DNA of 47,297 nucleotides from positions 1 through 47,297 of IMG/VR virus record IMGVR_UViG_3300050821_005224, one strand, 5' to 3'. Below, piece after piece: positions 11,324 through 47,297 of the stretch (positions are counted from its first letter, which is position 1; each line of letters opens with the position of its first letter). The DNA is from a virus. The notes below the pieces were generated by a model that did no database searches, was not told the DNA's origin, and was given only the letters and a program-made list of their open reading frames with translations. The translations under genes and the position numbers were made by a program.

Positions 11324-11348
11324 CTGCATCTGAGAAGAATGAAATGAT

Positions 11349-11399
11349 TTGCCGAGCAGGAGTATTGAAATGAAAGCTTCTCAAGAAACTGCTCGGCAA
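11349..11399 (+). promoter_or_regulatory. inverted repeat enclosing the start of the ATPase gene
   Basis: TTGCCGAGCAG (11349-11359) and CTGCTCGGCAA (11389-11399) are perfect 11-bp arms. The 29-base loop contains most of the ribosome binding site and the ATG at 11370. The arms are G+C-rich relative to their surroundings, and the right arm codes for Ala-Arg-Gln. Likely RNA hairpin controlling translation. Confidence 0.6.
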
Positions 11400-12398
11400 G
11401 TTAATCATATTCTAATCCAAGGAGAACCTCTTACAGGAAAATCTACTCTTGCTTCTAAAATGGCAGAATTGGGATGGAATTTAATTTGGTTCTCAATGGA
11501 TGGAAATCATTCTATTCTATCTAAACTAAGCAAAGCCGCACAAGATAGAGTAACTTTAATCCGTCTTCCAGATACTAGAGAATTCCCTATCGCCGCGGAT
11601 GTTATTAGAAAAGTTAGTAAATATCCTCTTGAAGATTGTAATATCTGTGATAATCATGGAATGGTTAATTGCTCAGTTTGTCAGAAAGTTAATCTACCTT
11701 TTGAGTTAATAAATTTGGGGCGCTTGCCGCAGAATACTATAGTAGTATGGGATAATTTATCTCAACTATCTGATAGTTTTATTAATCTTATTACAAAAAA
11801 TAAGCCAGTAGATTATAAACTCCAATTAGACGATTGGGGAAGTCTTCGTTTCCATATGATGGATATCCTGAATAGAATTAAAGTTGCTCCTTATAACTTG
11901 ATCTGTATAAGTCATAGTATTGAAGCGTTAGATGAAGCAGGAAATAAGAAACTTATGCCAATGGTTGGAAGTGCGGAATTTAGTAGGAAAGTAGCAGGAT
12001 ATTTTGATGATGTTATTTTCCTTTCGCTCAGTAATAATAAACACAGACAAGGAAGTAGTACAACTTATACCCATCAAGCAGTTGTAGGGAGTAGAAGAGA
12101 TATTAAAATTGAGGACATGAAAGAGCCAAGTTTAGCACCATTCTTTAACTGGATTGAGCCTACTATAGTAGAAAACAAGGAAAAGGAGAAAGAAGATGTG
12201 GGATCGGGAAAATCTGACAACATTATTCCTATTCCTTCTAGGACTATTAATAGCGATAGTAGTTTGGAGTCTAGTAGACTATCTTCAGACACAATAGTTG
12301 CTCATAGGGGGGAAGAGGCAGTAAAAGTAGAGGAGAAAGAAGATCCAATTGCTAAAGCAAAAGCTATGCTGGCTAAGATGAGAGGAGGAAAGAGGTAA
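11370..12398 (+). CDS. RecA/Sak4-like ATPase (recombinase)
   Basis: A 342-residue protein starting at ATG 11370 after CAGGAG. Walker A GEPLTGKST is at residues 18-26 and a Walker B-like strand TIVVWDNLSQ at 123-132. This order and the following SLRFHMMDILNRIK helix fit the phage AAA_24/Sak4 recombinase group. A CxxC-x7-CxxC zinc-knuckle insertion (Cys 90, 93, 101, 104) lies between the two motifs. The C-terminal 80 residues are charged and end AKAMLAKMRGGKR. It probably anneals or exchanges strands with the nuclease and SSB candidates nearby. An 11-bp hairpin surrounds its start codon. Confidence 0.8.
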   Translation: MKASQETARQVNHILIQGEPLTGKSTLASKMAELGWNLIWFSMDGNHSILSKLSKAAQDRVTLIRLPDTREFPIAADVIRKVSKYPLEDCNICDNHGMVNCSVCQKVNLPFELINLGRLPQNTIVVWDNLSQLSDSFINLITKNKPVDYKLQLDDWGSLRFHMMDILNRIKVAPYNLICISHSIEALDEAGNKKLMPMVGSAEFSRKVAGYFDDVIFLSLSNNKHRQGSSTTYTHQAVVGSRRDIKIEDMKEPSLAPFFNWIEPTIVENKEKEKEDVGSGKSDNIIPIPSRTINSDSSLESSRLSSDTIVAHRGEEAVKVEEKEDPIAKAKAMLAKMRGGKR

Positions 12399-12694: not shown

Positions 12695-13133
12695 CCATCC
12701 GAAGTTTGATCTAGACAACTCTACTCTCGATGATATTGAAGATCTTCCATCTTTCCTCACTTTTCCCGACGGCGCCTATCTCTGTCTCCTTCATGAAGGT
12801 TTTGAAGAAAAGGAGATTAACGAGAAGCAGGCTGTTTCTATTCCCATGACATTGAAGCAGATTATGGAATGCTCTGCTCCAGATGAAGAGAAGCCAAAGG
12901 AAGGAGATATCTGTAATACAGCCTACATGTTGGACAATGAGACTGGACGCGGTTTCTTGAAGGAGAGACTGAAGGAGATTAGTAGTGGGCTTAATCTTCC
13001 AAAGTCAGCAACGACTAGGGAGATTATGAAGGCCGCGAAGGGAGTTACAGTTCTTGCGATTTTGAAAAGGACTACTGATAAGGTAGATAAGGATAAGCAT
13101 TATCAGAAGATTGTGAAATTGGCAGTTACCTAA
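12687..13133 (+). CDS. putative single-stranded DNA-binding protein
   Basis: A 148-residue protein. The order is: acidic N-terminus; LPSFLTFPDGAYLC and ISIPMTLKQIMEC-like strands; GDICNTAYMLDNETGRGFLKE; KAAKGVTVLAILKRTTDK; and YQKIVKLAV. It matches my recollection of an OB-fold-like family found next to Sak4 ATPases and polymerases in environmental phages. Codon use is C/G-richer than in neighbours, consistent with an abundant DNA-coating protein. The identification rests on context and a remembered pattern, so it is tentative. Confidence 0.5.
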   Translation: MTDHPKFDLDNSTLDDIEDLPSFLTFPDGAYLCLLHEGFEEKEINEKQAVSIPMTLKQIMECSAPDEEKPKEGDICNTAYMLDNETGRGFLKERLKEISSGLNLPKSATTREIMKAAKGVTVLAILKRTTDKVDKDKHYQKIVKLAVT

Positions 13134-13147
13134 CTTTTTCGCGCCAC

Positions 13148-13212
13148 GATAAGGATCATCTAAATGGGTATTGATGTTCTATTCCATCATACTTTTGAAG
13201 ATGATCCTTATC
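13148..13212 (+). promoter_or_regulatory. 14-bp inverted repeat over the polymerase RBS and start
   Basis: GATAAGGATCATCT (13148-13161) and AGATGATCCTTATC (13199-13212) are perfect 14-bp arms. The left arm contains the ribosome binding site AAGGAT; the 37-base loop contains the ATG at 13164; the right arm lies in codons 12-17. A small inner hairpin (TGATG with CATCA, 8-base loop, 13172-13189) fits inside the loop. T4 DNA polymerase is known to repress its own translation by binding a hairpin over its ribosome binding site, so autoregulation is a plausible role here. Confidence 0.65.
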
Positions 13213-21900: not shown

Positions 21901-24036
21901 AGTATCAATTAATCCTCTAGCAATTTGCCCAGTTGGAGTTCTAGTTATTCCGTTCATATTATATTCTAACTGTACATGATTAACAGTTTGATGTTGACTT
22001 GGATCAATAGTAAACTCTCCATAATTGTTACTTCTCATTCCATCTTCAATATATTTAATTGGTACATTAGCTCTTAGAGCAATTTCATCCATTGGTATAT
22101 CTGGGTTTTTATCAATTAATTGATTAATAGTATCATTCTTAACTCCTTGAATATGATTACTAAGTTCGCGGAGAGAAGAAGGTAGATCTTCGCCGCTAGC
22201 TAATTCTCCTCCTTTCTGAATAAATTTAGATAAATAATCTCCGCTATCTTTGCTCTGACTTGCCTGTCTGTACAATTGCTCAAGAGCGGGGAGATCTTCA
22301 TCTCCAATTGTCTCTCCTTGTTTAATTCCCTTTTGTGCAAAATATACATACCTAGCGTTAACATCCAAGCTATTACCAGTAGTAAGATTAGTAGGAGTAG
22401 ATTGGTCAATCTTACTAAACTTATTTCCATACTGCAAACCTCCTTCTATAACTTTAGGTTTGCCAAAATCTCCCACTACAGCGGTAGGGTTAGAATTAGT
22501 AATATCTCCAGTTATAGTATTAACTGTAAGTGGTGCGCCGAAAAGCTTCTTAGCTTCTTCAGGTAACTGTCCACTACGGCGGAAGACTGTAGCTTCTGCA
22601 GGAGTAAGAATTCTACTAAATCCAGGAGCTGGAATTTGTTCAATATTTGGCGCCTTAGGATTTATATTAATCTGGAAATCTCCAGACTTTCCTTTAGACA
22701 TAAATAAATCTGCACCATCTTCCCAAGCATCTGCAGCAGAGGAATAACGAGGAACAAAACTCTTTCCATCAGGAGTTTGAAACATATCTTCAAAATGAGC
22801 AATCTTTGCTTCTGTAGCTCCAACTTTAAGCTGGTAAGCTTGGGAGAATAGAATATTAGGATTATCTGGCATAGGATTATCTGTTACTAAATCACTCCAA
22901 TTTCTCTCTGCTCCTTTAGCAAATCGGTTAATAAAGAAAGTTTCTCCATTAGGAGTAGATGGTTGATCTCCAATACGACTTAGTTTTCCTAGTCTTGTTA
23001 ACATTGTAGAGAGAGAAAGTTGACTAGGATCGGATAGATCATCTCTAACACTAAGTCCAGATTGTTTGGCGCGAATAGTTAAATTAGTCATAGCAGTACT
23101 TAGATCTTCATCTCCTTTATCAACCATATCAGAGAAAATTTTTCTAATACTATCTGTCGCTGCTTCATTAGTAAGTTGGACTTTCTTCGCTTGTAAAACT
23201 GTTGGCGGCCCCAAAGTTTGATTAATCTTCTCAACACTAGCAAGCAAACTAACTACACGATCTCCAGGATCAACTCCTAGTTTTCCAAGATACGCTGCAT
23301 TCTCTGCCCATTTAGAACTTTGATCACTAGCTAGCATTGCTTTTTGAAATAGACTACGAGTAAAAATTCCATCCAAACTTCCTCCAATAAGTCCTCCAGT
23401 AATTGCACCAAATCCAATATCACTAGCTACATCTCTCCAATTCTCATCATCTAGTAGAGGAGATGCTTTCATAGTAGCTGCGGTTGCAGCAGTATAAACT
23501 GCACCTTCTAGGGCATTATCAAGATAACCAAGACCAATAGCTTGAACTTGTTCGGCGCGAATAGAAGGAAAAAGTGCGGCATCTCCAAGTTTAATTTCAT
23601 TCATAGCTTCAGAAGTTATTCTTGCTGTTGTGTTAGAACGCAATAGTCCTGTAGCAGCAGAAAGTTCTGAAGTAAATTCTCCTGCTCTAGCAAATCTAAG
23701 TGCTTTTACAGCAGCTCCTCCTGGTATAGCAGAACCAGCGAAAAAACCCGCAGTATCAATGATGCCCTGATTTTGTTGATAGTAGTCATAAGCCTCAGGA
23801 TCAACTTCATTTTTCATATCCAATTTGTCTATATCTGCGCCAAGGAAGTTACCAGCTTCTATAGCTGTATTAGCAAAAGAATTAACTGCAGATAGAATAG
23901 TAGTAGGAATTCCTTTAGTAATTACATTACTCCAAGCTTCTTCAGTTGGAACATTACTAGTAGCTAAAGATGAAGAGTCAACTCCAAAAGCTGCATTAGA
24001 CATTACACCTGTAGTTGGATCAATGAAAGGGCACAT
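18871..24036 (-). CDS. very large internal virion (ejection) protein
   Basis: A 1721-residue protein, the largest in the window and the last of the late block. It starts in a TAATG overlap with the previous gene. Gly/Ala-rich segments near residues 95-110 and 205-225 (FFAGSAIPGGAAVKAL, IGFGAITGGLIGGSL) could insert into membranes. The C-terminal 500 residues are helical. Position and size fit the T7 gp16-type or P22-type proteins injected with the DNA. I see no transglycosylase or RNA polymerase motif. The 3' end overlaps the last early gene and carries a strong hairpin. Confidence 0.75.
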   Translation of the reverse strand: MCPFIDPTTGVMSNAAFGVDSSSLATSNVPTEEAWSNVITKGIPTTILSAVNSFANTAIEAGNFLGADIDKLDMKNEVDPEAYDYYQQNQGIIDTAGFFAGSAIPGGAAVKALRFARAGEFTSELSAATGLLRSNTTARITSEAMNEIKLGDAALFPSIRAEQVQAIGLGYLDNALEGAVYTAATAATMKASPLLDDENWRDVASDIGFGAITGGLIGGSLDGIFTRSLFQKAMLASDQSSKWAENAAYLGKLGVDPGDRVVSLLASVEKINQTLGPPTVLQAKKVQLTNEAATDSIRKIFSDMVDKGDEDLSTAMTNLTIRAKQSGLSVRDDLSDPSQLSLSTMLTRLGKLSRIGDQPSTPNGETFFINRFAKGAERNWSDLVTDNPMPDNPNILFSQAYQLKVGATEAKIAHFEDMFQTPDGKSFVPRYSSAADAWEDGADLFMSKGKSGDFQININPKAPNIEQIPAPGFSRILTPAEATVFRRSGQLPEEAKKLFGAPLTVNTITGDITNSNPTAVVGDFGKPKVIEGGLQYGNKFSKIDQSTPTNLTTGNSLDVNARYVYFAQKGIKQGETIGDEDLPALEQLYRQASQSKDSGDYLSKFIQKGGELASGEDLPSSLRELSNHIQGVKNDTINQLIDKNPDIPMDEIALRANVPIKYIEDGMRSNNYGEFTIDPSQHQTVNHVQLEYNMNGITRTPTGQIARGLIDTHYRVQLATDAADSAAAKLFGNDADLFKSSRGSEQANILGSGSKFIAESNANYDTLAQEMERIGGQVTQFTNRLNAADAGLLTPPINAIRNDEQAAAEWGMFLAVRRRTAASFAFLPDTLADKYQLPRNTVVLNDSLKIDKKGNITDWNKDYKPEGDNFYSGELLQKGQGAPAGNYTYYTLSPKVANLERAMQQVNDNRIPHKNNFYMAQGLEGRLKTGTLYAPPIDTTRYPYFAYVRSRPGTALGNSDVAIITASSKEELQQKIGQLTGEYTAWTKDQGAEFHKAEGDYQQDLNMAQNKVNTDLHRRGILNNIYPETRAEKLIDDYLNWNGRQNLSLTRNMVELTNAKLFAELQAMGKRFVGTETSQAGWLSPFVRKTADNPYDSYIRTALAVGNKDSNYPLWAYSQEKLEQFGDTAFNGMRYAFGAARKGLISYEDASQMAEKFGMGNPYEAATDRLKNYYSLVNKLPDPQVLRKFISVANTVLGSTVIRLDTFQQLIHILATPVLLTAESNSVRSQIVKNLLTTELPDGSGRQVPAISKVIYKAIQNYWNEDVRAQYGEIYQKAGVNRDELTQHMNMIDTLRLPYGNKGKINDIVKWTKQATDIGAKYAGTNFSRNFIHFVAADTGRQLFEGAGYSGKQLFSNIQTFASRIQGNYIATQRPVAFQGILGQAVGLFQTYQFNLMQQLLRYVENGEGKTIAMMAALHSTVFGLQGLPGFSMINNHLIGNAPGNTQHNDAYSELPQAFGHTLGNWLLYGAASNVLQTGLYTRGDINPRQLTLLPVNPLDFPAISGGIRFVGSMFDAAAKIAKGGDIPASLLVGLEHNGLSRPLAGLAQLVQGYSTTASGSLIQSTSTNPPSGDNTQGYSDLLSIANFSRLFGARPLDEAIAMNAEYRSNLYKAVDVSRMEGLGEAVKSTMIGNRSPSDDETDNFITQYAAAGGDIRHFSSQMLKWGQEANASTANKFFGQLSNSGISRNMQEIMGGTPLADFRNQGSTQGTSPVSQSSDE
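18910..18948. terminator. hairpin at the convergence of early and late blocks
   Basis: GGTACTCCCTT (18910-18920) and AAGGGAGTACC (18938-18948) are perfect 11-bp arms around a 17-base loop, which can extend by four more pairs including two G-T pairs. It begins 8 bases past the last early stop codon, but lies inside the coding end of the 1721-aa gene. There is no T tract, so it is not a classical intrinsic terminator. A role in stopping rightward transcription or protecting the 3' end is inferred. Confidence 0.45.
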
Positions 24037-25838
24037 TATGGATTATTACTCCCGGGTAGAGTTTGTTCTTTATTTAGTTCCATAAGGGGTAGACTTCCAA
24101 TACGTTTGAGTGGAATATCTCTCCCTTGAGCATCAATTCTCTCGCTAATACTTAATCTCCTAAGTGCATTTTCAACTGCGGCTCTATTAGTCATATCTGT
24201 TGGTTGAGATCCTCCAAGTAATCCAGTTCTAAGATTTCTAATATTAAAATTATATCCCCCTAATTCTTCCGGACTTCCAGGAAGTGCAAATTTTTGAAAC
24301 TGTCCAGTTTGAATTCTATCTGCAAGAACATGTTGATACATTCTACTAATCTCATCAGCCGCAGATCCAATAGTTTCTTCTCTCGCAGTAACAGACTGAA
24401 TAGCTGCGCGGAAAATAAGATTAGGATCAAGCGGCGTCATCTTATTACTATCTGCCATAGGGGCGAGATACTTACTAATTCCCATCTGTTGAATAGCTGG
24501 CATTTGAAGAGCAGAGTAAATTGTTCCTGGGGATAAAGGATGTCCAGTTAGAGGAATATTTTTTGCAGCATTTTGAAAACTTTCCTTAATTAATTCATCT
24601 TGCATTCCTAATTGCTCCCCAGGATCTCCTTTAGCTCCAAGGTACTTCACACCTAAAGGAGTCTTTAGATCGAAGAGCGGAGATATAATATTCTCTAGAT
24701 CCAACTTTGTCTTATTTGCTGCAGGTCCTAGATCAAATCCTAATTTATCAACTAAATTCATTGCCATTGCAGGAGAAGCTCCAAGAGCACCAGCTCTCTG
24801 AACAGCAGGATTTTGCATTAACTCTTCCCAAGCTGCTCTCTGTTGTGGTCCAAGAAGTTGTAACTCTTGATAAGTTGGAGGAACTTGACCAAGAGTATCT
24901 CCAGCAATTTTAAGTTTACTATTGATAGTGTCGATACCTTGTTGTTTTCCAACTCTAGCATCAATCATTGCTTGTTTCTGTTCTTCATACAGAGGCTCTC
25001 TTTCTTCTTCAATATGTTTCCCTATCTGCTCCAACATACTATTTCTAGTCTGAATTCCAATAAATGCTTGATCTGTTGCATTCTTCGCCGCAGCTTCAGT
25101 TGCTTGTACTCTAACACTTTCAGCACTAACTCCAATTCGCGCCGCTTCTTGCTGGAATTGTGCAGCTTTTTGGGCAGCTATTCCAAGTTGCTGTTGTCCA
25201 AAAGCTGCTAGTTTAGCTGCTCCAGCGGCAGTGTCACTAATAGCATTAACCTTTCCTTCTTCAGTAGTAAATGCCGCTGCATTATTAAGTAAATTTTGAT
25301 ACTGTTGGTTAGCTCCTCCAAGATCTTCTCTTTGAGCAATAAGTTTAGGATTATTAATATATTTATTCGTAAGAAATGCGATAGGATTATCAAAAAATCC
25401 AACTTGATCATTCTTAAATATTTGCTGATTAACTCCAACAAGTTTCTGCGCGTTTTCCATAATTTGTTTACTAAGTTGTACTACTGTAGAATTTACATTA
25501 CTGGAGTCAAGTCCTTGTAAAGCTCTAACATTGGCATTAGCAGCAGCTACTCTTTGTTCATATTGCTCCGTTGCTGCTTCAACTCCTGTAGCTCCTTTTG
25601 CCTCCTCCTGCGCTCCTTTACCAGCTTGTTGTGCTGCAGACATTCCCATACCAAATGCGCCACTAAGTGCATTCATACTAATACCTAATTGTTTACCTGC
25701 ATTCTCCATTACTCCGCCAAGTATCTTAGGAATATCAAGAGCATTACCCAGCTCATCAGTTTTATTGATTGGAGGAGTTAAAGAAGATGGAGGAATGATT
25801 GTAGCAGCTACAGAAGAAGCTGCAGGACTATCAGACAT
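24036..25838 (-). CDS. internal virion protein, Gln/Ala-rich coiled coil
   Basis: A 600-residue protein. I choose ATG 25838, with GGAG about 9 bases away and an 8-base overlap with the upstream gene; a TTG at 25844 is too close. The N-terminal half is rich in Ala, Gln and Asn (MGMSAAQQAGKGAQEE and onward) and mostly helical. The C-terminal part is less biased. Composition and placement beside the 1721- and 315-aa proteins fit one of the three ejection-core proteins of podoviruses. Confidence 0.7.
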   Translation of the reverse strand: MSDSPAASSVAATIIPPSSLTPPINKTDELGNALDIPKILGGVMENAGKQLGISMNALSGAFGMGMSAAQQAGKGAQEEAKGATGVEAATEQYEQRVAAANANVRALQGLDSSNVNSTVVQLSKQIMENAQKLVGVNQQIFKNDQVGFFDNPIAFLTNKYINNPKLIAQREDLGGANQQYQNLLNNAAAFTTEEGKVNAISDTAAGAAKLAAFGQQQLGIAAQKAAQFQQEAARIGVSAESVRVQATEAAAKNATDQAFIGIQTRNSMLEQIGKHIEEEREPLYEEQKQAMIDARVGKQQGIDTINSKLKIAGDTLGQVPPTYQELQLLGPQQRAAWEELMQNPAVQRAGALGASPAMAMNLVDKLGFDLGPAANKTKLDLENIISPLFDLKTPLGVKYLGAKGDPGEQLGMQDELIKESFQNAAKNIPLTGHPLSPGTIYSALQMPAIQQMGISKYLAPMADSNKMTPLDPNLIFRAAIQSVTAREETIGSAADEISRMYQHVLADRIQTGQFQKFALPGSPEELGGYNFNIRNLRTGLLGGSQPTDMTNRAAVENALRRLSISERIDAQGRDIPLKRIGSLPLMELNKEQTLPGSNNP

Positions 25839-45162: not shown

Positions 45163-45579
45163 CTACTGTGCCTCAATAAAATAAAAGTCTTGCGCCGAGT
45201 CAGCTGTATAGATAGAACAATTCGCCCCTACACTATACGCTATAGATATTCTATTTTTAAAATTAATTGGTACATTTCCTGGAAGAATAACTCCTACTGT
45301 ACTATTAGCTGTAGCTGCATAGCACATCTTTGGAGTCATTCCTGTACCTGGAGATGGAACTGCCGCGAGATCCCAAACAAGGATGAAGCCATTTGCAGAG
45401 CCAGAAGTTACAGTTGCTCCCCAAAAAGTACTTGCACTTATAGAATAACTAACAACATTTGGCGCGCTACTGAAGCCATTAACCGCTGCAACTGATGCTT
45501 GGCCTTTAACTTGAGTAGTTGATAAGGAAAAAGTAAGAAGTAGAAAAGTGAAGAATAGTATTACTCTCTTCGCGGCCAT
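45163..45579 (-). CDS. small exported protein, first gene of the late block
   Basis: A 138-residue protein. AAKRVILFFTFLLLTFSLST forms a Sec signal. Conserved with its paralogue at 44708: GATVTSGSANGFILVWDLAA, MCYAATANSTVGVILPGNVP and CSIYTADSAQDFYFIEAQ. AGGAG precedes the ATG, with an imperfect inverted repeat (7 and 5 pairs) spanning this site. It leads the late transcript, so it is likely abundant; possibly a decoration or surface protein. Confidence 0.7.
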   Translation of the reverse strand: MAAKRVILFFTFLLLTFSLSTTQVKGQASVAAVNGFSSAPNVVSYSISASTFWGATVTSGSANGFILVWDLAAVPSPGTGMTPKMCYAATANSTVGVILPGNVPINFKNRISIAYSVGANCSIYTADSAQDFYFIEAQ

Positions 45580-46039
45580 TACTTTCTCCTATCTACTTAT
45601 AAGTACTAACTAAGTAGTACCTATATAATATTCTTGCCAATTTTTACTATATCACTTATAAAAAACTCTGTAAAGTGGGGATTTTCGCGCCTCTACTAAC
45701 TTATTACTTCTTCCCAGACTAACTAATAACTAAAAAAGGCAAAAATGATGATAAAAAATTAGAAAATTTTGATGAGTGTTTGAGGATGAACTCAAATCAC
45801 AAACCAAAAAAGGTCTTCTACCCCCTACTTCATTTCTTTTCTACTGGATGGTCTAAGTAGTGGACAATAATGCTAATGTAGTATGCGCGAGACTACTAGC
45901 TATCCTCAACTATACGCCGCGATGGATGTAATAATGTTGTAGGTACATTACGGGCTGACAGTTGGTAGTAGCTAGCGATCACGATCTAACAACTTACTAG
46001 TCATTAGTTATGATCGCTAGCTACTTAGTCAGGCCAGTA
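45580..46039. other. intergenic region at the head of the late block
   Basis: About 460 bases without a credible gene. Near the late start are two palindromic motifs, ACTTATAAGT (45596-45605) and GTACT...AGTAC (45604-45621), possible operators. A 6-bp hairpin, TTTGAG with CTCAAA, lies near 45779-45796. A 15-bp inverted repeat sits at 45967-46025. I found no convincing -35/-10 pair for the late promoter, although the A+T-rich stretch 45620-45660 is the best location. Confidence 0.6.
45967..46025. repeat. 15-bp perfect inverted repeat with 29-base loop
   Basis: AGTAGCTAGCGATCA (45967-45981) and TGATCGCTAGCTACT (46011-46025) are perfect inverted arms; TAAC and GTTA within the loop can add pairs. 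It lies 14 bases after the stop codon of the 246-aa gene and has no T tract. It could be a terminator-like structure, a protein-binding site, a recombination site or a packaging signal. Confidence 0.75.
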
Positions 46040-46780
46040 TTACAGGCCCATTTCGATGGTGATTTCCTTCGGAGCGAGGAAGGAATTCAGCTTGTCGATG
46101 AGCTTCTGAGTAGTGTTGTCTGGAGCGGCCAGTTTCACGGCTTTTAGAAGCTGAGAAGATATACGCTCGTTGAACGCTGTTCTTGGACTGGCCAACTGTG
46201 ACAGTAATTCACAGTGTTGATTGACTGCCTTTGTCAGGAGTTCGAGTTGTTCGTTGCTTGGCTCATCCGGGTAGTTCATGCTGTTGGACAGTGCGAGAGT
46301 GAAGTTGTCTTCCAGGTTCAATTTGAACCAATTGATAACCCCTTGCTTGGATAGATGGCCGGAAGTGGAGTTTTCCGACTGGTAGTTTGCAATGCCGGAA
46401 GGGGAGATGTCTGTTGATTTGATGTGCATGTCCTTCAAGGACAGCTTCTGTACGTCCCTCTGAGTTTCGATCAGGGAGCGAATGACGATGTCTTGTAGAT
46501 CCATGTAGCAGGCTTCCAGAGCCTTCTGTAGGCACTCAGGCTTGATAGTGAGGATTGTTGGCTTGGGGATTGATACGGCCATTGCAGGAGGAGCCTTCTT
46601 CCCTACCTTGGTCATTTTGTCTGTCTGTTTGTAGGAGACGATAGACAGACGGTGATCGCTGTTGTCGGGCTTGGAAGTGTCTGTGTAGTAGAAGACTTGG
46701 TAGGAGGTGACTGGAAATCCGAGGGTGGAAATTGGAGTGTTGTTGTCGGGAGTGGAAGACTGAGAGAGATTGACGGACAT
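46040..46780 (-). CDS. isolated leftward gene of unknown function, foreign composition
   Basis: A 246-residue protein. I recognise no family. N-terminal strand segment (LGFPVTSYQVFYYTDTSKPD), a basic linker (KMTKVGKKAPP), then PKPTILTIKPECLQKALEAC and an all-helical C-terminal half ending KLNSFLAPKEITIEMGL. Gene order and the helical tail loosely resemble the 258-aa early protein, but this is weak. Base composition is clearly richer in G+C than the rest of the window. It has its own promoter (46933-46961) and a structured leader that hides its ribosome binding site (AGGAG, just upstream of 46780). Confidence 0.75.
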   Translation of the reverse strand: MSVNLSQSSTPDNNTPISTLGFPVTSYQVFYYTDTSKPDNSDHRLSIVSYKQTDKMTKVGKKAPPAMAVSIPKPTILTIKPECLQKALEACYMDLQDIVIRSLIETQRDVQKLSLKDMHIKSTDISPSGIANYQSENSTSGHLSKQGVINWFKLNLEDNFTLALSNSMNYPDEPSNEQLELLTKAVNQHCELLSQLASPRTAFNERISSQLLKAVKLAAPDNTTQKLIDKLNSFLAPKEITIEMGL

Positions 46781-46782
46781 TG

Positions 46783-46926
46783 AAGTTACTCCTAAGTATT
46801 CGACGGGAGTAACTTAGTCCGATGAGGGAGAATAGTTCTCCCGTCTTCGATCGAGGTACGACAGGATTGTCGCATTGCTCGCGTTCGATCCGGGCCTTCC
46901 ACCGGAATGGCGTGTCTTACTTAACT
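46783..46926 (-). promoter_or_regulatory. structured 5' leader with competing hairpins
   Basis: Leader of the 246-aa gene, about 145 bases. Hairpin C: AAGTTACTCC (46783-46792) with GGAGTAACTT (46806-46815), perfect 10 bp; on the leftward transcript the strand next to the start codon is the ribosome binding site GGAGTAACTT. Hairpin A: GACGGGAG (46802-46809) with CTCCCGTC (46838-46845), 8 bp. Hairpin B: GGGAGAA (46826-46832) with TTCTCCC (46836-46842), 7 bp. A overlaps both B and C, so they exclude each other. Farther upstream CGACA/TGTCG and GATCGA/TCGATC add a nested stem. This is the architecture of a riboswitch or translational attenuator. Confidence 0.6.
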
Positions 46927-46932
46927 GTCATT

Positions 46933-46961: not shown

Positions 46962-47109
46962 TAGATTTTTGTATTAGATTGTTGCATTTTTTAGGGGAGA
47001 TTTTGAAAGAATGTTGCGCTGTTCACCTTTTAGACCACGAAAGGAGGAACGTTCCTATAACGTTCCAGGAACAAAAGTGTTATAAGGGACAAAACGAGAA
47101 CAAATCGTG
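46962..47109. other. non-coding region with AACGTT motifs next to the terminal repeat
   Basis: No gene seen. GGAACGTTCC (47046-47055), TAACGTTCC (47058-47066) and GTTCCAGGAAC (47063-47073) cluster here, and the inverted form GGAACGTTA follows in the terminal repeat (29-37). AAAACGAGAACA (47091-47102) recurs at 101-112 and at 47211-47222. If the genome is circular or concatemeric these lie within about 170 bases, suggesting binding sites for a packaging or regulatory protein. Confidence 0.5.
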
Positions 47110-47297
47110 AAATATTTATGTTTTGTTCTTTGTTCTTGGAACGTTACGAGAATAAATCACGTTCACGGGTACAAAAGGAGAACATTCTCTCCCTAGCTGG
47201 GGGGGGGGAGAAAACGAGAACAGCGCATGAAGTAAGGTTAACTTATGCGTCTAGGACATAACGGCAGAATTTGTACGATTTGTTTTCGTAGTTTCTT
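47110..47297. repeat. right copy of the direct terminal repeat
   Basis: Matches positions 1-187 in order, with 10 instead of 9 G residues in the G run. See the left copy for interpretation. Confidence 0.9.

Follow-up and report, generated by a model that had tools for sequence, protein, structure and literature searches.

In the RNA phage MS2, the maturation gene is under kinetic control and is translated only until its leader has folded. The DNA polymerase of phage T4, gp43, is a family B enzyme. According to PMC3014915, the gp43 operator of T4 and RB69 forms a hairpin that lies 5' of the start, shows a -UAAC- loop and acts through polymerase binding. Inhibitory RNA helices at the start site are described in PMC3014915 and PMC2988022 for e, soc, 49 and I-TevI of T4, as well as for mobE of Aeh1; in e and I-TevI, a late promoter situated within the 5' arm or close to it gives a short unstructured mRNA. 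The kind of device analyzed here is already known from other phage genes, and no report of such a device on the gene studied here was found in the open-access literature searched.

The DNA analyzed (the window) is a viral IMG/VR record of 47,297 bases. The start of its family A DNA polymerase gene, polA, is enclosed by a perfect inverted repeat with 14 of 14 positions paired (Table 1), exactly as claimed in the initial annotation, and the coordinates also bear out the location that it gave for the Shine-Dalgarno sequence, the ATG and the right arm. The AAGGA motif lies 8 nt upstream of the ATG at 13164. In a comparison with shuffled sequences, which it had proposed, the 85-nt segment 13138-13222 folds with -30.4 kcal/mol, in relation to -13.5 (sd 2.7) in the shuffles (z -6.2), and 0 of 200 shuffles equalled it. 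Watson-Crick stems with a score of at least 33 and a loop of 3-80 nt were found twice in the window, in comparison with a mean of 0.0 in 40 first-order Markov versions. Rfam matched nothing within the window.

Table 1. Features of the window around the polA start and the upstream ATPase gene start.
Feature	Position	Strand	Sequence	Remarks
Left (5') arm of the polA hairpin	13148-13161	+	GATAAGGATCATCT	Contains Shine-Dalgarno AAGGA, 13151-13155
Loop, 37 nt, with the ATG	13162-13198	+		TGATG and CATCA pair in a small inner stem; its 8-nt loop is TTCTATTC
Right (3') arm of the polA hairpin	13199-13212	+	AGATGATCCTTATC	polA codons 12-17, E-D-D-P-Y-L
Family A DNA polymerase gene polA, 774 aa	13164-15488	+		PF00476 (DNA_pol_A), E 2.3e-26; PHROG 17 DNA polymerase
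Upstream gene, 148 aa	12687-13133	+		Conserved among relatives; unmatched in Pfam and PHROG
Sak4-like ssDNA annealing protein / AAA_24 ATPase gene	11370-12398	+		ATG 11370; PF13479 (read from 11349), PHROG 124
Second start-enclosing hairpin, left arm	11345-11359	+		At the Sak4-like ATPase gene
Second start-enclosing hairpin, right arm	11389-11403	+		15 pairs, 13 of them Watson-Crick

Strong stems at the polA start were also found in two related loci, L009 and L092. The L009 polymerase shows 47% protein identity to that of the window, and its homologous stem (TAAGGAGCATCT/AGATGCTCCTTA), placed on the window structure, keeps 11 pairs unchanged; in two pairs both partners differ (G-C in place of T-A, and A-T in place of the outermost G-C), and one pair is lost. 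Controls with slid partners gave zero double changes; nevertheless, shuffles attain this covariation count in 135 of 500 trials because only two sequences are compared. The L092 polymerase shows 48% identity to the window, and the locus is the sister of L009 on the tree (100/99). Its stem (GTTTGGGGAAACTTAG/CTAAGTTTCCTCAAGC) has another sequence, pairs with codons about 10 bases further on, contains two G-U pairs and is longer than that of the window; it is extended by an 8-bp stem beneath a bulge. In the three loci, the probability of being paired is ~1.0 over the Shine-Dalgarno sequence. The 5-bp inner stem with an 8-base loop, also described in the initial annotation, is present in the window, but in L009 and L092 neither the position nor the sequence of its pairs is conserved. 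The inner stems of the window and L009, both with 8-nt loops, are about two positions apart and differ in sequence, and a conserved inner stem similar to the T4 operator found no support.

Three distant members share an unusually stable stem at this start, which differs in sequence among them. In a set of 114 polA starts (from 183 loci, which gave 180 rows that had a start, window included, and 114 once near-copies were removed), the three lowest z-scores are those of the window, L009 and L092 (-4.2 to -5.0; mean -0.39, sd 1.32), with the start codons of the relatives assigned heuristically and a few of them probably wrong, which adds noise. The cost of opening the 30S site (positions -18 to +13) is 23.1 kcal/mol in the window, 20.4 in L009 and 19.3 in L092, the top three of the 114 (mean 8.3, sd 4.1).

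The position of the polA start codon is consistent with its relatives in the alignment. The protein motif encoded by the right arm is conserved in them as E-D-x-P-Y-L, often encoded with CCTTAT, which complements Shine-Dalgarno sequences such as ATAAGG; therefore, some complementarity comes free. Leaders and coding regions were swapped among 100 starts, which remained after near-copy removal from 116 loci (112 of them had a start, and the window brought the rows to 113). The own leader/coding pairing reaches -24.7 kcal/mol in the window, -25.6 in L009 and -32.4 in L092, whereas swapped pairs show a mean of -10.4 (sd 3.7, n=9,900) and a minimum of -27.2, and only 0.12% of them reach -24. Furthermore, in each of the three, none of the 99 foreign partners surpasses the own pair, whichever half is exchanged. 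Plain Shine-Dalgarno/coding complementarity, which accounts for five to six of the pairs, is rejected by these swaps as the full cause. In each of the three loci, 0 of 3,000 leader shuffles reached the observed stem, and synonymous recodings did so in 11.6% (window), 16.8% (L009) and 0.33% (L092) of trials. As 12-17% of the synonymous versions pair equally well, the signal of the window and L009 sits in the leader and not in codon choice.

Taking p < 0.05 in relation to 983 other gene starts, five of the 15 polA starts at 46% identity or more (window included) pass, and four of the 99 below. The latter are one of 30 at 43-46% identity and three of 69 below 43%, which is the chance level; these pass rates indicate that the trait is lineage-restricted and patchy. 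On the tree, it requires three changes, and 20 of 500 label shuffles were equally low. The initial annotation had taken unconserved pairing in phages with the same gene as evidence against its proposal, and this is partly the case, since most relatives lack it: p < 0.05 is missed by 10 of the 15 starts in the upper identity group and by 95 of the 99 in the lower one. In L012 and L008, which are likewise sisters, the stems are weaker and consist of 12 pairs, three of them G-U (score 23, p 0.018), and no comparable polA-start stem was found in L002, a near neighbor of L009 and L092 in the tree. L002 retains a sequence similar to the right arm, GATGATGCTCCTTATCTT, and its leader has no match to it, which shows that the right arm is retained on account of the protein. 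In Aeromonas phage P5, the polA start shows a stem of 12 pairs, three of them G-U (score 24, second of 48 starts, z -2.0), suggestive only as a comparable hairpin; in the other three named phages (L171-L173), no comparable stem was found at the polA start. DNA pattern searches for further homologous hairpins (9 and 39 stretches) recovered only L009 at the polA start, the remaining stretches being other genes or chance, and protein scans with L009 or L092 as query recovered only themselves. The genome scan gave 45 loci, four of which (L124-L127) were used in the counts, and the collections searched contained no relatives of the window with more than 80% identity. The hairpin is lineage-restricted and probably selected.

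The gene located directly 5' of polA encodes the 148-aa protein in the window, a PHROG 4658 protein in L009 and another protein, of 189 aa, in L092. Since the next upstream gene differs among the three, the hairpin belongs with polA. The stop codon of the upstream gene is 14 nt 5' of the left arm in the window and about 6 nt from the stem in L092. A terminating ribosome has a footprint of 10-11 nt, which would melt the foot of the L092 stem and not that of the window; coupling through a terminating ribosome was not relied on.

Judging from the sequence, we consider it fairly probable that the polA hairpin is a cis-acting RNA which sequesters the ribosome-binding site and throttles translation. 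Against this reading count the many relatives without the stem, the lack of enrichment at starts for Watson-Crick-only stems, a covariation based on two sequences, and a right arm that is itself coding sequence. Work on the MS2 coat gene hairpin indicates that a stem of ~20 kcal/mol should block initiation at equilibrium, and the polA stem would act without any protein. In the growing transcript, the Shine-Dalgarno sequence is accessible, at least in part, as long as the 3' end has not gone beyond about +40 in the window and L009, or about +50 in L092, and it is fully paired and unavailable once the transcript extends to about +45 to +55; L009 has it open to no more than 20-30% already in short transcripts. 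Ribosomes would load mainly in the short interval preceding transcription of the right arm, or elongating ribosomes would hold the right arm open, and each mRNA would yield a limited burst of polymerase. Alternatively, something might open the stem; early loading appears most likely, with the stem as a throttle on polymerase dose. If this is true, translation of a family A polymerase is restrained by its own first codons, RNA folding would set the polymerase dose, and phages other than the T4 group would have evolved translational control of their polymerases as well.

The polA start stem is the best of 20 starts in L092, 29 in L009, 24 in L012 and 22 in L008, in regions of 20 kb; in the 20-kb region of L002, polA is outside the best six of 27 start stems. 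In the window it ranks second of 54, the first being that of the Sak4-like ATPase gene. These two starts also show the highest opening costs among 53 window starts (24.3 for the ATPase gene and 21.0 kcal/mol for polA; mean 10.7, sd 4.2), closely followed by a small minus-strand gene at 45163-45579 (20.4). In addition, the homologous ATPase gene of L050 shows a start stem of 14 pairs at 540-606 (CTAAAGGGCGGGAC/GTCCTGCTCTTTGG, score 32). Across 111 loci, six of the 129 sense-strand stems with a score of at least 29, G-U allowed, enclose a start (1.53 expected by rotation, P 0.005), and three of the six are at polA and two at the ATPase gene; this set includes the window hairpin, which was given beforehand, and without it five remain (P ~0.02). 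Watson-Crick-only stems with a score of at least 25 show no enrichment at starts (3 of 67 enclosing, 1.66 expected, P 0.23). Both counts omit L171-L173, and their thresholds were picked after the data were seen. That polA and the Sak4-like recombinase gene are, in this phage lineage with a family A polymerase, together under start-enclosing hairpins, fast-evolving in sequence and register, as an independent translational and possibly autogenous control paralleling T4 gp43/gp32, seems to us quite improbable.

Other structures were observed in the window. The leader of the minus-strand gene 46040-46780, at 46760-46930, shows several hairpins in series with no Rfam match; among its positions, 46783-46815 form a 10-bp stem with a 13-nt loop, in which the Shine-Dalgarno sequence of this gene is in the arm beside the ATG. 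The start region of a 600-aa minus-strand frame, 24036-25838, folds strongly (z -3.9) with another shape. A perfect 15-bp inverted repeat with a 29-nt loop (45967-46025) encloses no predicted start, a perfect 13-bp one with a 57-nt loop (1676-1758) lies within the open frame 1533-2765, and an 18-nt inverted repeat with 94% complementarity (47058-47146) is close to the record end.

A mutational relic, e.g., from templated quasi-palindrome correction that copied the right arm onto the leader, is a serious rival; taken together with chance in a large set, it would leave the polA hairpin with no regulatory function, which we hold to be unlikely. The sporadic distribution among relatives fits such an origin, as do two long stems of the window that lie apart from starts (45967-46025 and 1676-1758), the Watson-Crick stems not enriched at starts, and the match across five to six bases that conserved CCTTAT codons and Shine-Dalgarno sequences already have; however, a single gene shows such stems at three of its 114 starts, and two of the three belong to sisters that differ in register. 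In addition, L009 shows compensatory changes, and RNA-type pairing is overrepresented at gene starts, and also at two replication genes. The perfect repeat of the window might also be read as a DNA-level element, e.g., a replication or protein-binding site, but the sequence is not conserved, the arms follow the start codon, and L092 deviates from Watson-Crick pairing through G-U pairs on the mRNA strand, and we give this reading almost no credence.

The polymerase might bind its own hairpin and repress its translation, like T4 gp43, with which it shares the gene function, and the hairpin goes with polA despite the differing upstream genes. Against such an autogenous operator, a stem this stable would repress without protein, the window, L009 and L092 show no common loop or sequence and no conserved inner stem, and the stem of the ATPase gene is unrelated to that of polA; moreover, the loop is UUCUAUUC, in comparison with the -UAAC- that PMC3014915 gives for T4 and RB69. 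We regard an autogenous operator as very improbable, and gp43-type autoregulation was supported by none of the tests. What is supported of the translational device proposed for a family A polymerase in the initial annotation is the control hairpin, given the PF00476 assignment, a structure without sequence conservation in three loci and the highest opening cost of the 114 starts. An early/late switch of the T4 e/I-TevI type, in which long transcripts fold while a promoter within the left arm, or just past it, yields a short mRNA that is translated well, would use the same kind of Shine-Dalgarno sequestration (PMC3014915). It appears quite improbable, as no promoter resembling the sigma-70 consensus was found on the + strand near 13100-13163 (phage-specific promoters may differ) and a DNA polymerase is expected as an early product.

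The throttle preferred here is similar to the MS2 maturation leader in that translation would be limited to the period prior to folding; the MS2 case differs as an RNA phage with long-distance leader folding and no direct stem between the Shine-Dalgarno sequence and codons. The gp43 operator and the polA hairpin are both RNA hairpins at the beginning of a gene for a replicative phage DNA polymerase, but the operator, as described in PMC3014915, lies upstream and has a conserved -UAAC- loop, whereas here the stem encloses the start, the Shine-Dalgarno sequence pairs with codons 12-17, and the loop is not conserved. In addition, the window polymerase belongs to PF00476 and not to family B; the comparison with the gp43 autoregulatory operator is weak. 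In T4 e, soc, 49 and I-TevI and in Aeh1 mobE, as described in PMC3014915 and PMC2988022, the Shine-Dalgarno sequence is likewise in a stable helix, which should lower 30S binding with no protein required. The start sites studied here agree with this (opening costs of 19-23 kcal/mol). They differ from the described e and I-TevI helices in that the start codon is within a large loop, the gene encodes a DNA polymerase, and no sigma-70-like promoter was found in place of their late promoter. By these analogies, the window hairpin appears closer to the T4 e, soc, 49 and I-TevI helices than to the gp43 operator.
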